DNA of 64,000 nt from Longibacter salinarum. Lineage in GTDB: Bacteria > Bacteroidota > Rhodothermia > Rhodothermales > Salinibacteraceae. Numbering within the stretch: position 1 is the stretch's first letter; every line of letters starts with the position of its first letter. Positions 33,855 to 59,824 of the stretch are shown here, piece by piece. The position numbers were made by a program, and so were the translations under genes. The notes beneath the pieces were generated by a model. The model had not been told where the DNA came from. It did not search any database and worked only from the letters and a program-made list of their open reading frames with translations. Location of the stretch: assembly GCF_002554795.1 (NCBI RefSeq), contig NZ_PDEQ01000002.1, positions 558,001-622,000 on the forward strand, written 5' to 3'.

Positions 33855-34817
33855 TTACCGGGCTCGATGCGGCACGTCCTCCCCGTCAAAATAGGCGAGT
33901 AGTGACTCGACGCACATCTGACCCATGCGGATGCGAGCCTCGACCGTTGCGCTGGCGAGATGGGGAGCGAGCACGACGCGGTCGTGATTCATGAGGCCCG
34001 GGTGGACATCGGGTTCTTCCTCAAATACATCGAGGCCGGCACCAGCGATCATGCCGGCATCTAGCGCTTCGACGAGATCAGCCTCTTTGATCACCGGCCC
34101 GCGTGCCGTGTTAATCAGAAGAGCTTCTGGTCTCATCATATTCAGCGCCTCCAAGTCGAGAAGGTGATGGCTGTCTTCATTGTGCGGACAGTGAAGTGAG
34201 ACCACATCGCTCGATGTAAGAACGGTTTCGAGAGAAGCGGGCGTTGCCCCGGATTCACGGATCACCGTAGGGTTGGCAGGCGATCGGTTATAAAAGATGA
34301 CGTCCATGCCGAAGCCCAATGCCCGGCGGGCGACCGCCGCCCCAATTCTCCCGAGACCAATGATCCCGAGCGTTTTGCCAGCGAGTTCCATGCCCAGAAT
34401 CGTTCTCGTTTCCCACCGCTCGAAGTGACCCTCTCGTACGAATGCGTCCGCTTCCAGAACGCGGCGTCCAACAGCAAGAAGCAGCGCCCACGTAAAATCA
34501 GCTGTCGCGTCCGTGAGTACACCCGGTGTGTGTGTTACTGTGATGTCGGCTTCTGCGGCGGCATTGAGGTCTACGTTGTCAAGTCCTACCCCATACTGGG
34601 CGATCACCTCAAGGCCAGGGCAGCCGGCGACAACATCAGCGGTGATGGGGTCGGCAACCGTTGTTATTATGGCACGTGCGTCTCCAATACGATCGATCAA
34701 CGACTGCTCGCTGAGTCCATCGCCAGACGGTGGTGAGCCGACGGTAACATCGTGATGCGAAGCGAGGCCTTCGAGTGCACCGTCGACGAGAGGACGAGTA
34801 ACGACAATTTGGGCCAT
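33855..34817 (-). CDS. D-2-hydroxyacid dehydrogenase
   Basis: An NAD(P)-dependent dehydrogenase of 320 aa, from the family containing phosphoglycerate dehydrogenase and glyoxylate/hydroxypyruvate reductases. The Rossmann part has LGIIGLGRIGAAVARRAL. Active-site segments are NTARGPVIKEADLVEAL with Arg, GLDVFEEEP with Glu and APHLASAT with His. It lacks the C-terminal ACT domain of long SerA forms. The short length suggests a glyoxylate/hydroxypyruvate reductase or short SerA; the substrate is not decidable. It converges on mutS2 with 30 bases between stops. Confidence 0.88.
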   Translation of the reverse strand: MAQIVVTRPLVDGALEGLASHHDVTVGSPPSGDGLSEQSLIDRIGDARAIITTVADPITADVVAGCPGLEVIAQYGVGLDNVDLNAAAEADITVTHTPGVLTDATADFTWALLLAVGRRVLEADAFVREGHFERWETRTILGMELAGKTLGIIGLGRIGAAVARRALGFGMDVIFYNRSPANPTVIRESGATPASLETVLTSSDVVSLHCPHNEDSHHLLDLEALNMMRPEALLINTARGPVIKEADLVEALDAGMIAGAGLDVFEEEPDVHPGLMNHDRVVLAPHLASATVEARIRMGQMCVESLLAYFDGEDVPHRAR

Positions 34818-35369
34818 GACAGAAGTGGGAGAGGCGTGGATGGGAGGACGAAATTGATCCGCGTTCGTTTACTATAGAGCGGGCGGCGGGTTTGAATGTC
34901 AAAGCGGCGAGGTAAAGGCCGATGCTTAGCTACCGGACACTTTCACTGGTACCCACGTCACTTCCACATTCCCCGGCGCGGCTGCGCCGACATGGACGGG
35001 AGTATGTGGGTATGGGAGTGTGAGAGTGCGTCATTTCTCGACGATAACGCCTCGTTTCCGAGACGTGTGGGGCTGACGCGGTCCGTTTCTCGAAGTCGCA
35101 CGGAACCATTCCGTGGTGGAACCAAACTGTCCGGTACCTAGGGCCGATGCTTGAGCTGTTTCCCGTACGCGCCGATGTTTGTTGTCGCTGGGACCGAAGC
35201 AGGCGTCCAACAGGGTGGACACGGGTCGTATACGATAGTGGACGGTCCAGGGGACGACCGTTCGTAACGAGCTCAAAAAGCTGATGGCCCTACTTTTGTG
35301 TAATGGTTAAACGAGCCGTATCCTCTTCTTCCACGTCATTCTTTTTCTCTTTCGGACCACCCTCACTGT
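34818..35369. other. Divergent intergenic stretch with the dispersed repeat
   Basis: 552 bases between the dehydrogenase (- strand) and the DUF4783 gene (+ strand). Copy A of the dispersed repeat (34913-35144) fills the middle. The remainder must include both promoters, but no clear box was recognised. Confidence 0.6.
34913..35144 (+). repeat. Dispersed MITE-like repeat, copy A
   Basis: About 232 bases matching, in the same block order, the reverse complement of 57138-57380. Shared blocks include CGGACACTTTCA (34934-34945), GAGTGCGTCATTTCTCGAC (35024-35042, one mismatch), AACGCCTC..TTTCC.AGACGT (35046-35066), GTCCGTTTCTC (35081-35091) and GGTACCTAGGGC (35133-35144). In this copy TACCGGAC (34931-34938) and GTCCGGTA (35129-35136) are perfect terminal inverted repeats. 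GGCCGATGCTT occurs on both flanks (34918 and 35142). It has no transposase. Confidence 0.8.
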
Positions 35370-35819
35370 ATGCGTTTCCTCAAAGTGATGGTCTGCATGC
35401 TGGTTTTTGCTGCAATGGGGAGTACGGTGGCGAGTGCCCAGGAGGCAGATACGTCATCTGAATCTGCTGACAGCACGTCCGGCGTACCAGAACAGGTGAT
35501 AACTCGAGTCTCGAACTCGTTTCAAAACGGAGATGCTGATCTGCTTCTCGAACAGACCGCAGACCGAATCGAGGTCAGCTTGCCAGGAACGAGGGCATAT
35601 TATAGCCGGTCGCAGGCTATGTACGTTCTACGAGCATTTTTTCAGGAGCATGACCCCACTCGCTTCGAGATCGAGGACGTGTCGAAGGCTGGTGCAAGTT
35701 ATTTTGTGACCGGTCGGTTCTGGTATTCACGGAGTGAGCAGCCGATGCATGTCTACACTCGGTTTGTAAGCCGCAGTGGCCACAAGCTGTACGAGATCCG
35801 CGTTGAGCCGCTCCGGTAG
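35370..35819 (+). CDS. DUF4783-like secreted protein
   Basis: A 149-residue protein with a signal peptide ending near residue 23 (FAAMGSTVASAQ), followed by an acidic Ser/Thr-rich linker and a compact domain of NTF2-like appearance (VITRVSNSFQNGDADLLLEQ, then a YSRSQAMYVLRAFFQEHDP segment). It matches my memory of the DUF4783 family found in Bacteroidota and Rhodothermota. No enzymatic role is known. It lies 51 bases upstream of the large kinase gene, so the two may be co-transcribed. Confidence 0.8.
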   Translation: MRFLKVMVCMLVFAAMGSTVASAQEADTSSESADSTSGVPEQVITRVSNSFQNGDADLLLEQTADRIEVSLPGTRAYYSRSQAMYVLRAFFQEHDPTRFEIEDVSKAGASYFVTGRFWYSRSEQPMHVYTRFVSRSGHKLYEIRVEPLR

Positions 35820-45690: not shown

Positions 45691-45855
45691 ATGTCTAAAG
45701 CACCATTTCGAAAAGAGAAACGTCATGCCTCTGATCGGCATGAACGCCGGCGCGTACGTTTTCGCGATCCATCCGGCAAACAGGTTATGAACCCTTTACG
45801 AATCCGGTTCGATACGTACGGCCATGCCGGAGAAGTAACGATCGGGCCGCGGTAA
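45691..45855 (+). CDS. Small basic hypothetical protein
   Basis: A 54-residue frame from the ATG at 45691 to a stop at 45853-45855. It is rich in Arg, Lys and His in the first half (APFRKEKRHASDRHERRRVR) and ends DTYGHAGEVTIGPR. No family was recognised. Such a basic small protein could bind nucleic acid, but this is only a guess. It sits between the TlpA-like gene and the methyltransferase gene. It may be a chance frame. Confidence 0.35.
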   Translation: MSKAPFRKEKRHASDRHERRRVRFRDPSGKQVMNPLRIRFDTYGHAGEVTIGPR

Positions 45856-57137: not shown

Positions 57138-57380
57138 GCCCTAGCTACCGAACCGTTTTGATTTCAAACCGGAATGTCTCCATATGTTGGAATGTCTCCA
57201 TATGTTATTGAGAAACGGACGTCGTATGTCTCATACGTCTTGGAAAAGAGGCGTTGTCGAGAAATAACGCACTCACACACTCCAATGCCAACATACGCCC
57301 GTGCATTTCGGAGCAGCCGAGCTGGAAATGCCGAAATGACACACGCTCTAATGAAAGTGTCCGTTCGATACTAGCCTTTA
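57138..57380 (-). repeat. Dispersed MITE-like repeat, copy B
   Basis: The reverse complement of this stretch matches 34913-35144 in at least six ordered blocks, for example TGAAAGTGTCCG (57352-57363), GTCGAGAAAT (57256-57265), ACGTCTTGGAAAAGAGGCGTT (57235-57255), GAGAAACGGAC (57210-57220) and GCCCTAGCTACC (57138-57149). One end coincides with the TAA stop of the transporter gene (57378-57380). It is about 10 bases longer than copy A, partly through an 18-bp tandem duplication at 57171-57206. Confidence 0.78.
57171..57206. repeat. Perfect 18-bp tandem duplication
   Basis: GGAATGTCTCCATATGTT occurs twice head to tail, at 57171-57188 and 57189-57206, within repeat copy B. Copy A has no such duplication, so it appears to be a recent local event. 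Confidence 0.9.
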
Positions 57381-59669
57381 CGCAAGAGCGCTTTCGAGGC
57401 CGGAGTCTCGGACGAAGAGGCACGTAGATTCGGTCGTTTCGACGAGGGCCCTTGAGAATGCGAAGTCGATGTTCGGATCCAGTCCGAAGATGCTGAGGTC
57501 AGACTGCGGTGCATCGCGAACGTGATCACGGAAGTCGCCCGAGCGGACCACAATCTCGGGGTCGGGGATGCGGCCTAGATCCGTCAGCGTGTCCAGGAAC
57601 TCTTGGGCTCGTGCTTCCTCTTTGGGATCGTTCGTCACCGTGAGCACACGTAGACGTGCGTCCCAGTTTTGCGACAGCTTGTACCCGGTGAGAAGGGCCA
57701 GATCCAGGTTGCCGATATCCATCGAGATATTCCATTCGGGACTGCGGTCCCGAATCCAAACGTTGATGGTCTGCTGTTGCCCGAGTGCGGCCCGCGGGTG
57801 GGGGGCATAGAGCATCGTCCCAACCTTCTCACGATCCGCCTCACGGATAATGCGTCGATAGTCCTCCTCCCGGTTCGGCTCCGGCATGCGAAGAAAGACG
57901 ACGTTGGGTCGAAAGAAAGCCCCCCGGAGAGCCTGCATGCCCGCGCTGAGGCCGTCCGCAAATCCACCTGCATCGAGAACGGTGTGGGAAGCGAACACGC
58001 CGCGTTCTCGGAAGGCGCGGGTGAGTGGTTCCAGCGATTGATTGAGATGGTCGCTGTCTTCGTCGGTGATCCCGACGATCTTTACGGAGCCCTGAGGCTT
58101 GGTGACGTGTTCGAGCATCAGAAAGGTGCCTCGGAGGTCGCTCGCATTTTCCACGGGAACGAGCAGGTTGGGCTTCCAGGCACGTTCTTGCATCGTCGGC
58201 AGCTCTGCCACTTTCTTCGCCGCCCATTCCGCTACGGAGACGAACATCCCACTGCGAACGTCCTCGAACGGTGCATCGAGATGTCTCCGCGCCAGCCATC
58301 CGTAGACCGCTATGGTCGCCACGACAGCGATCAGGCTCACGGTCGGGTTGATGATAAACATAGCGAAAAGGGATCCCAGCAGGCCGAGGAGCGACACCCA
58401 GCGAGGAATGCGGAGCTTCGGTCGGAAGCTGACGAGGTCGAGACTCTGCTCGATCAGGACGGCCGCATTAATCATCGCGTACGTGACCAGGAAAAACATC
58501 GTGATGAGCGGAGCGACGGCATTGAGGTCGCGAACCAGAAGCGAGAGAACGATAATGCCGCCGGTAACCCACATCGCGTTCCTCGGCTCGCCATTGTCCG
58601 CGCGACGCGACAGCCAGCTACTCGCTGGGACGACCTCGTGCGCCCCCATGGCCTGCAGGATACGGCCCGCTCCGACGAAGGACGCCAGGGCGGAGGAGAA
58701 GGTTGCGCCCAGAAGCCCTGCAAGCACGGCCGGACTCCAAAATGCCTTTTCCGCCATGACCATGTAGTTCGTCTTCAACTCTTCCGGTGTCGCGGACTTG
58801 GCGAGCCAGATGGCAAGAAATACGTAGATAATGAATGCCACGCCGATCGCAGCAAGCGTGCCGATCGGGATGGCTTTGCGGGGCTCCTTTAAGTCACCGC
58901 TCATGTTCGCCCCGGCCATGATTCCGGTGGTCGCGGGGAAGAAGACGGCAAAGACGATCCAAAATCCCGAACCGTCCCCGGCGGCCGTAGCGAAGTCGCC
59001 CCAGAGTTTTATCTCGCCAAGATCGTACTGCATTGAGCCGGTGCCTGCCGCCAGACCGATCGAGACGAGCGATGCCGCGATGATAGCCATAATCAGGTAC
59101 TGGACGCGGATGGCGAAGTCGGCGCTAACATATGCAATGCCGTAGAGCGTGACGAAAACCGCGGCGTCCACGAGCATAGCGCTATGCCCCGGGAAAATCG
59201 CGAGCCAGCCTTCGCGAAAGCCGAAAATGTACATCGTCACCGCCAGTGCCTGCGAAAGGTAGCGCGGGATCCCCACGCTCCCGCCGACCTCAAGACCGAG
59301 CGACTGCGCGATGACCGCGTACGCTCCACCGGCCCCAATTCGGATGTTCGTCGTGATGGACGACATCGAGAGGGCCGTGCAGAGCGTGATACCGAACCCG
59401 AGGAAGATGATCATCAGCCCGCCGAGAAGCCCGGCATTGCCGATCACCCAGCCTTCCCGGAGGTACATGATGACGCCGAGGATCGTCAGGAGCGTCGGTG
59501 TGAAGACGCCGCCGAACGTCCCAAACTTCTTGCGACCCTTCGTCGGTGTGCTTTCAACGGACGCCTGGACATCCTCTCCGACCGAGATGCCCTCACGACG
59601 ATCGGACGTAGAGGCATTTGAAGCGGTTTGCTCGGACGAGACGGAGCCAGCTGCGTTGGACTCGTTCAT
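57378..59669 (-). CDS. SLC12-like cation-chloride cotransporter / APC-superfamily permease
   Basis: A 763-residue inner-membrane transporter. A Ser/Thr-rich cytoplasmic start of about 45 residues precedes a core of about 12 helices, which begins KKFGTFGGVFTPTLLTILGV and MYLREGWVIGNAGLLGG. This start is characteristic of cation-chloride cotransporters. GAGGAYAVIAQSLGLEVGGS and FPATTGIMAGANMSGDLKEP follow. A C-terminal soluble region of about 260 residues, as in bacterial SLC12-like proteins, ends the chain. In a halophile it could move K+, Na+ and Cl-. An amino-acid substrate cannot be excluded. The ATG at 59669 is preferred over an upstream in-frame Met. Confidence 0.87.
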   Translation of the reverse strand: MNESNAAGSVSSEQTASNASTSDRREGISVGEDVQASVESTPTKGRKKFGTFGGVFTPTLLTILGVIMYLREGWVIGNAGLLGGLMIIFLGFGITLCTALSMSSITTNIRIGAGGAYAVIAQSLGLEVGGSVGIPRYLSQALAVTMYIFGFREGWLAIFPGHSAMLVDAAVFVTLYGIAYVSADFAIRVQYLIMAIIAASLVSIGLAAGTGSMQYDLGEIKLWGDFATAAGDGSGFWIVFAVFFPATTGIMAGANMSGDLKEPRKAIPIGTLAAIGVAFIIYVFLAIWLAKSATPEELKTNYMVMAEKAFWSPAVLAGLLGATFSSALASFVGAGRILQAMGAHEVVPASSWLSRRADNGEPRNAMWVTGGIIVLSLLVRDLNAVAPLITMFFLVTYAMINAAVLIEQSLDLVSFRPKLRIPRWVSLLGLLGSLFAMFIINPTVSLIAVVATIAVYGWLARRHLDAPFEDVRSGMFVSVAEWAAKKVAELPTMQERAWKPNLLVPVENASDLRGTFLMLEHVTKPQGSVKIVGITDEDSDHLNQSLEPLTRAFRERGVFASHTVLDAGGFADGLSAGMQALRGAFFRPNVVFLRMPEPNREEDYRRIIREADREKVGTMLYAPHPRAALGQQQTINVWIRDRSPEWNISMDIGNLDLALLTGYKLSQNWDARLRVLTVTNDPKEEARAQEFLDTLTDLGRIPDPEIVVRSGDFRDHVRDAPQSDLSIFGLDPNIDFAFSRALVETTESTCLFVRDSGLESALA

Positions 59670-59824
59670 GAGACGAGTAGGTTCGGGAGAAACAGCGCGA
59701 TGTATTCGCGAGACAAAGTTTCTCCAACATATGAATGAACACGGTGACGTGTCCAACGACCGGGGAGAAGTGAGAGCCCGGTTTTGTTACTACAACGAGA
59801 TTGGGATTCTCCAGCGGGGAAACG

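Follow-up and report, generated by a model that had tools for sequence, protein, structure and literature searches.

A new MITE family in Longibacter salinarum that shares its ends with an IS4-related IS and is often inserted in heptad arrays

The repeat found twice in the 64,000-nucleotide stretch of DNA analyzed here (the window) is a MITE. It belongs to a family dispersed through a genome of 4.4 Mb in 22 contigs, and we consider it very probable that this family is mobilized in trans by a resident IS of the IS4 family, that each insertion creates a 9-bp duplication, and that heptad arrays collect both MITE and IS in a single register. The repeat is a new MITE family of an IS4-related system, and MITEs of this kind are already known.

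Two copies in the window and the family to which they belong

The original prediction described a pair of related, transposase-free repeats in inverted orientation, shaped like a MITE or another mobile intergenic element. When 34913-35144 and reverse-complemented 57138-57380 were aligned with MAFFT, they proved collinear over the full length, including CGGACACTTTCA and GTCCGTTTCTC, which confirmed the pair and its orientation; by BLAST, copy B was 77% identical to copy A over the aligned core (E 3e-27). The features of the two copies are as follows.

34926-35141, + strand: copy A of the MITE (216 bp), from a young subfamily; 96 to 100% identical to five other copies in the genome
34926-34945, + strand: left terminal inverted repeat of copy A, TTAGCTACCGGACACTTTCA
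35122-35141, + strand: right terminal inverted repeat of copy A, CCAAACTGTCCGGTACCTAG
34917-34925: left target-site duplication of copy A, GGCCGATGC (an 11-bp match counting TT)
35142-35150: right target-site duplication of copy A, GGCCGATGC
57141-57371, - strand: copy B of the MITE, an old and diverged member of about 231 bp

Copy A is real, but its bounds had to be moved inward from 34913-35144 when the element ends were set by comparing copies together with their flanks. Terminal inverted repeats are present as predicted, but 8 bp was too short an estimate: they extend over 17 nt at 88% complementarity, and the ends are conserved in the family alignment. The sequence GGCCGATGCTT, correctly noted on both flanks of copy A, is the 9-bp target-site duplication plus the matching TT. 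Copy A is flanked by divergent ORFs (33855-34817, - strand; 35370-35819, + strand). Neither a sigma-70-type promoter consensus nor a terminator consensus was found around it, and the suggested effect of the copies on expression is hypothetical. Copy B does adjoin the end of a transporter gene, but without touching the stop codon, starting about 6 bases past that of the ORF at 57378-59756. It contains an internal duplication of CATATGGAGACATTCC, and its target duplication is gone (0/9 bases match).

Copies of the repeat are plentiful. A BLAST search of the genome with copy A gave 48 matches along an identity gradient from 67 to 100%, which clearly disposes of the possibility that there are no further copies. 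Six places, including copy A, matched at 96 to 100% (the others, as contig:position, are C2:8517, C11:106132, C12:58913, C1:266590, and C7:129630); these five further places and the E value of copy B also rule out chance likeness on the level of shuffled intergenic DNA. Because the five are so nearly identical to copy A, movement has been recent. An iterated profile search over the fetched loci resolved about 47 elements, 34 of which are full-length without large inserts and measure 203 to 231 bp, with a modal length of 216 bp. They have the structure [C/T]TAGCTACCGGACA(C/G)TTT...AAACTGTCCGGTA(G/C)CTAG.

Target-site duplications were counted in the 43 copies for which both flanks were available. 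A perfect 9-bp duplication was found in 17 copies, and at least 8 of 9 bases matched in 23, whereas with shuffled partners the number of perfect duplications averaged 0.84 and never exceeded 6; the longest duplication length still matched by 17 copies was 9 bp. Indels among the copies are not multiples of three, and a shared open frame is therefore not expected; the copies have no coding capacity. The identification as a MITE is borne out by the many dispersed copies, the matched terminal inverted repeats, the 9-bp duplications, the absence of any coding potential, and the existence of a partner IS that shares the ends.

Other repeats were seen alongside this family. In several copies of the MITE, one central site is occupied by an insert with CTGAATCCAAATGATCGT and TCATTTGGATTTGG at its borders (locus L073, 735-1190; L074, 354-915; L077, 955-1299; and C2:33714-34288), and some of these inserts hold a ACCTGTTTGGCGG element, making them nested mobile elements. 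A second and commoner repeat family of the genome has the ends ACCTGTTTGGCGGATGG and ACCTGTTTGGCGGACAG, often paired about 180 to 200 bp apart, with 121 end matches in the genome and at least one in the window (45769-45785, - strand). It looks like another MITE family.

The partner IS and its relatives

Apart from the ends of MITEs, a search for the tip TAGSTACCGGACASTTT returned ten ends, each no more than about 700 bases from the end of a contig and with TAGCTACCGGACAGTTT at the contig break; the tip of the partner IS is CTAGCTACCGGACAGTTT. Interior sequence divides these ends into five left and five right. We take the two groups for the left and right half of a single IS whose copies were collapsed during assembly, which would imply about five copies. 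The assembly is broken at the IS at C2:1, the end of C4, C5:1, C9:1, C10:1, both ends of C11, C12:1, and both ends of C16. The small contigs C17 to C22, considered as the middle of the IS, read as N, and the assembly lacks this part. Translation of the left half gives MSNSRRLQDSIERAICQQLPPLRKTRRRNLTRFCAGLYEAEHVHLPKIADRC..., and that of the right half gives a 225-aa end of a DDE transposase. The right ends match PF01609 (DDE_Tnp_1) and NCBIfam IS4-family models, the 225-aa fragment scoring 85.6 bits against NF033591, below the full-length cutoff. MITE and IS share only their ends, roughly 18 bp, which rules out derivation of the MITE from the IS by simple internal deletion.

The search for a full IS with the same ends, in which the genome itself yielded the ten ends, was successful in a genome of another genus of the same family (G021). 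The homologous IS found there is intact, measures 1,216 bp, has identical tips, and is flanked by the 9-bp duplication GTCGGACGG. Its transposase of 388 aa scored 158.9 bits against NF033591 (cutoff, 152) and has the spacing D(61)D(108)E, inside the IS4-family range. In the Y(2)R(3)E(6)K motif, the Y, R, and E are kept and the K is replaced by Q, so that IS4 membership rests on the NCBIfam model, the DDE spacing, and the duplication length; "IS4-related" is the safer wording for the partner IS. A distant homologue of the IS transposase, at 41% identity, is present on a Salinibacter ruber plasmid, and among the named organisms searched, IS4 relatives were found in Anaerolineae only.

The MITE itself was found by DNA similarity in none of 99 other genomes, including the same-genus genome G001 (83% complete), and G001 has neither the partner IS nor its tips. 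The tip is present in ten other genomes of the family. In three of them (G017, G024, and G007) the elements between such tips are different MITEs, about 190 to 290 bp long and unrelated in their interiors, and 8 of 12 same-tip MITEs of other genomes have perfect 9-bp duplications. These different MITEs with the same tips indicate one end-recognition system serving several MITE families. G017 and G024, which belong to the genus that includes G021, have a separate MITE family of about 230 to 290 bp, which shares these tips and contains long palindromes in its interior (L163 to L171). The same-tip MITE of G007 (L172 to L174) has internal stretches such as GTCATTCCGCACCCCGATGCGGAATCTCC, which apparently belong to a further type of repeat located within it.

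On this evidence the MITE would be non-autonomous, with the DDE transposase of the resident IS recognizing its TAGCTACCGGACA ends in trans. We infer from the shared ends that this transposase, of which the assembled genome shows the 225-aa end, is the mover. Insertion would proceed through a 9-bp staggered cut that is then duplicated, and the chemistry is probably cut-and-paste. In the simplest view, the repeat is a selfish element that mostly lands where harm is small, no host function having been demonstrated. Many of the short repeats dispersed through these genomes may plausibly have arisen in this way.

Insertion into heptad arrays

Many MITE flanks consist of tandem arrays, such as GTTCAGGGTTCAAGGTTCAGGG. 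Among 42 reconstructed empty sites, 52% lay in arrays with a 7-bp period (periodicity score of at least 0.6); the corresponding shares were 0.19% for 20,000 random positions and 0.76% when the control was drawn from a crude intergenic mask. Periods other than 7 and 14 were seen at no more than 5% of the empty sites. The array sites extend beyond GTTCA to AATCCTC-like and ACACCTA-like heptads. About half of the MITE copies lie outside heptad arrays, and these include copies A and B, at whose sites arrays are absent.

Within the arrays, insertion follows a fixed register. In all 19 MITE insertions with GTTCA or TGAAC inside the duplication, the second of the 9 bases is the first of GTTCA (nGTTCAnnG, or the complement of this), and the IS flanks are in the nGTTCAnnG register in 10 of 10 cases. 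Insertions outside GTTCA arrays, in this genome and in relatives, shared a consensus, though a weak one: G/C at both position 1 and position 9, and T4/A6 (about 0.39 each after symmetrizing). Since nGTTCAnnG satisfies this consensus of insertions made elsewhere, sequence recognition is favored over survival bias and is probably what causes the array preference. The transposase would prefer a 9-mer of the form S..T-S-A..S, and the intergenic GTTCAnn arrays would present tandem nGTTCAnnG 9-mers, where IS and MITE would both collect in one register.

The shared target bears on the identity of the mover. It is unlikely that the MITE was moved by a different transposase with the same end specificity, perhaps one since lost, and that the resident IS is only its cousin. 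The MITE interiors are unrelated to the IS, identities from 67 to 100% point to several bursts over a long time, and the middle of the IS is unassembled, all of which would suit such a history. However, IS and MITE have ends, array target, and register in common, and both have very similar copies in this one genome, which together indicate recent joint activity; the sole further PF01609 locus found, at C1:21777, is known by its domain match alone. We therefore retain mobilization by the resident IS.

Less likely again is that the array preference reflects selection, the elements inserting widely and surviving in dispensable intergenic repeats. The arrays are intergenic, and insertions there are probably harmless. 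The enrichment nevertheless holds against intergenic positions, and selection gives no reason to expect that, with seven registers available, the same one would be used in 29 of 29 cases.

Genomes of relatives were informative about the age of the arrays. GTTCAnn triplet matches number 332 in the present genome, and 115 in G001, and none was found in 25 further genomes of the family. No element is present in the intergenic region of G001 orthologous to that of copy A, nor at two array loci of G001 orthologous to sites of MITE copies; at the orthologue of the C7:129631 locus, the same gene end is followed by a GTTCA array without the MITE. These comparisons indicate that the arrays are older than the insertions. 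At the other of the two array loci (G001, C17:4400-4670, L192; compared with L015, 1430-1960), the heptad is GGAATGC in G001 and GTTCAGG, plus a MITE, in the present genome. The array unit therefore changes between species, as if the period were kept while the sequence changes.

These observations make it highly unlikely that the heptad arrays are products of the transposons, arising by slippage or as footprints of insertion and excision, and not a pre-existing target. MITE, IS, and arrays do coincide in the present genome, and no other genus of the family has GTTCA arrays. Against this, the array matches of G001 occur in a genome with neither the MITE nor an IS of this kind, other genomes with same-tip MITEs have no arrays, and the array period of 7 differs from the duplication of 9. 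A natural test of how transposons choose their targets is provided by a genome of the genus with arrays and element, one with arrays alone, and other genera with related elements alone.

Intergenic arrays specific to a genus can serve as places of insertion at which genes are spared. We tentatively suggest that an IS4-related system may have become specialized on genus-specific, fast-changing 7-bp intergenic arrays in one fixed register, which would be a bacterial form of safe-haven targeting to simple tandem repeats. If this is true, host repeat arrays shape where transposons accumulate. The literature searched gave no matching report of MITEs in Salinibacter or of IS insertion into heptad arrays.

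Least probable of the explanations is a structured RNA or regulatory element acting in place (an attenuator, noncoding RNA, or terminator), for although both window copies adjoin genes and copy A alone folds with a z of -3.67 against shuffles, no Rfam family matched in the window, indels occur throughout the repeat, the consensus fold of 28 copies reached only -3.77 kcal/mol, and the compensatory changes looked for were not borne out (two-sided change in 2 of 24 pairs). The mean z over 34 copies moved from -2.0 to -0.6 once the 20-nt ends were removed, indicating that fold stability comes from the inverted repeats; a conserved structured RNA was rejected.

Comparison with known systems

The hallmarks of the IS4 family include the spacing D(60-110)D(100-150)E, and its subgroup IS10 has CT ends, 9-bp repeats, and lengths of 1,200 to 1,350 bp (PMC2266710). 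The 5'-CT ends of the partner IS, the 9-bp duplication, and the 1,216-bp homologue agree with this subgroup, and the DDE spacing falls in the range of the family; in contrast, the YREK lysine is replaced by Q, and NCBIfam places the partner in transpos_IS4_2. By CT ends, duplication, and size, the partner IS resembles subgroup IS10. With regard to target choice, the T-N-A center is all that the IS10 hot spot and the present 9-mer have in common.

Some IS elements insert into REP/BIME sequences, which are abundant palindromic intergenic repeats. The use of an abundant intergenic repeat as a target is shared with the present system. Their target is the palindromic REP, whereas the IS and the MITE described here share a 7-bp tandem array as target and a single register within it. 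REPINs are likewise short, dispersed, non-autonomous intergenic repeats, built on REP palindromes of 20 to 40 nt and mobilized by the RAYT tyrosine transposase. The present MITE resembles them in being short, dispersed, intergenic, and non-autonomous; unlike them, it has no single REP palindrome, its partner is of the DDE type, and its duplication is 9 bp. Membership in the REP/BIME/REPIN class was rejected, as structure and partner differ.

The closest fit is with bacterial MITEs, which are short, gene-free, and intergenic, occur in many copies, are bounded by terminal inverted repeats, duplicate their target, and share their ends with a partner IS. What sets the present MITE apart from them is its register-specific preference for heptad arrays and a sequence confined, among the relatives searched, to this species.
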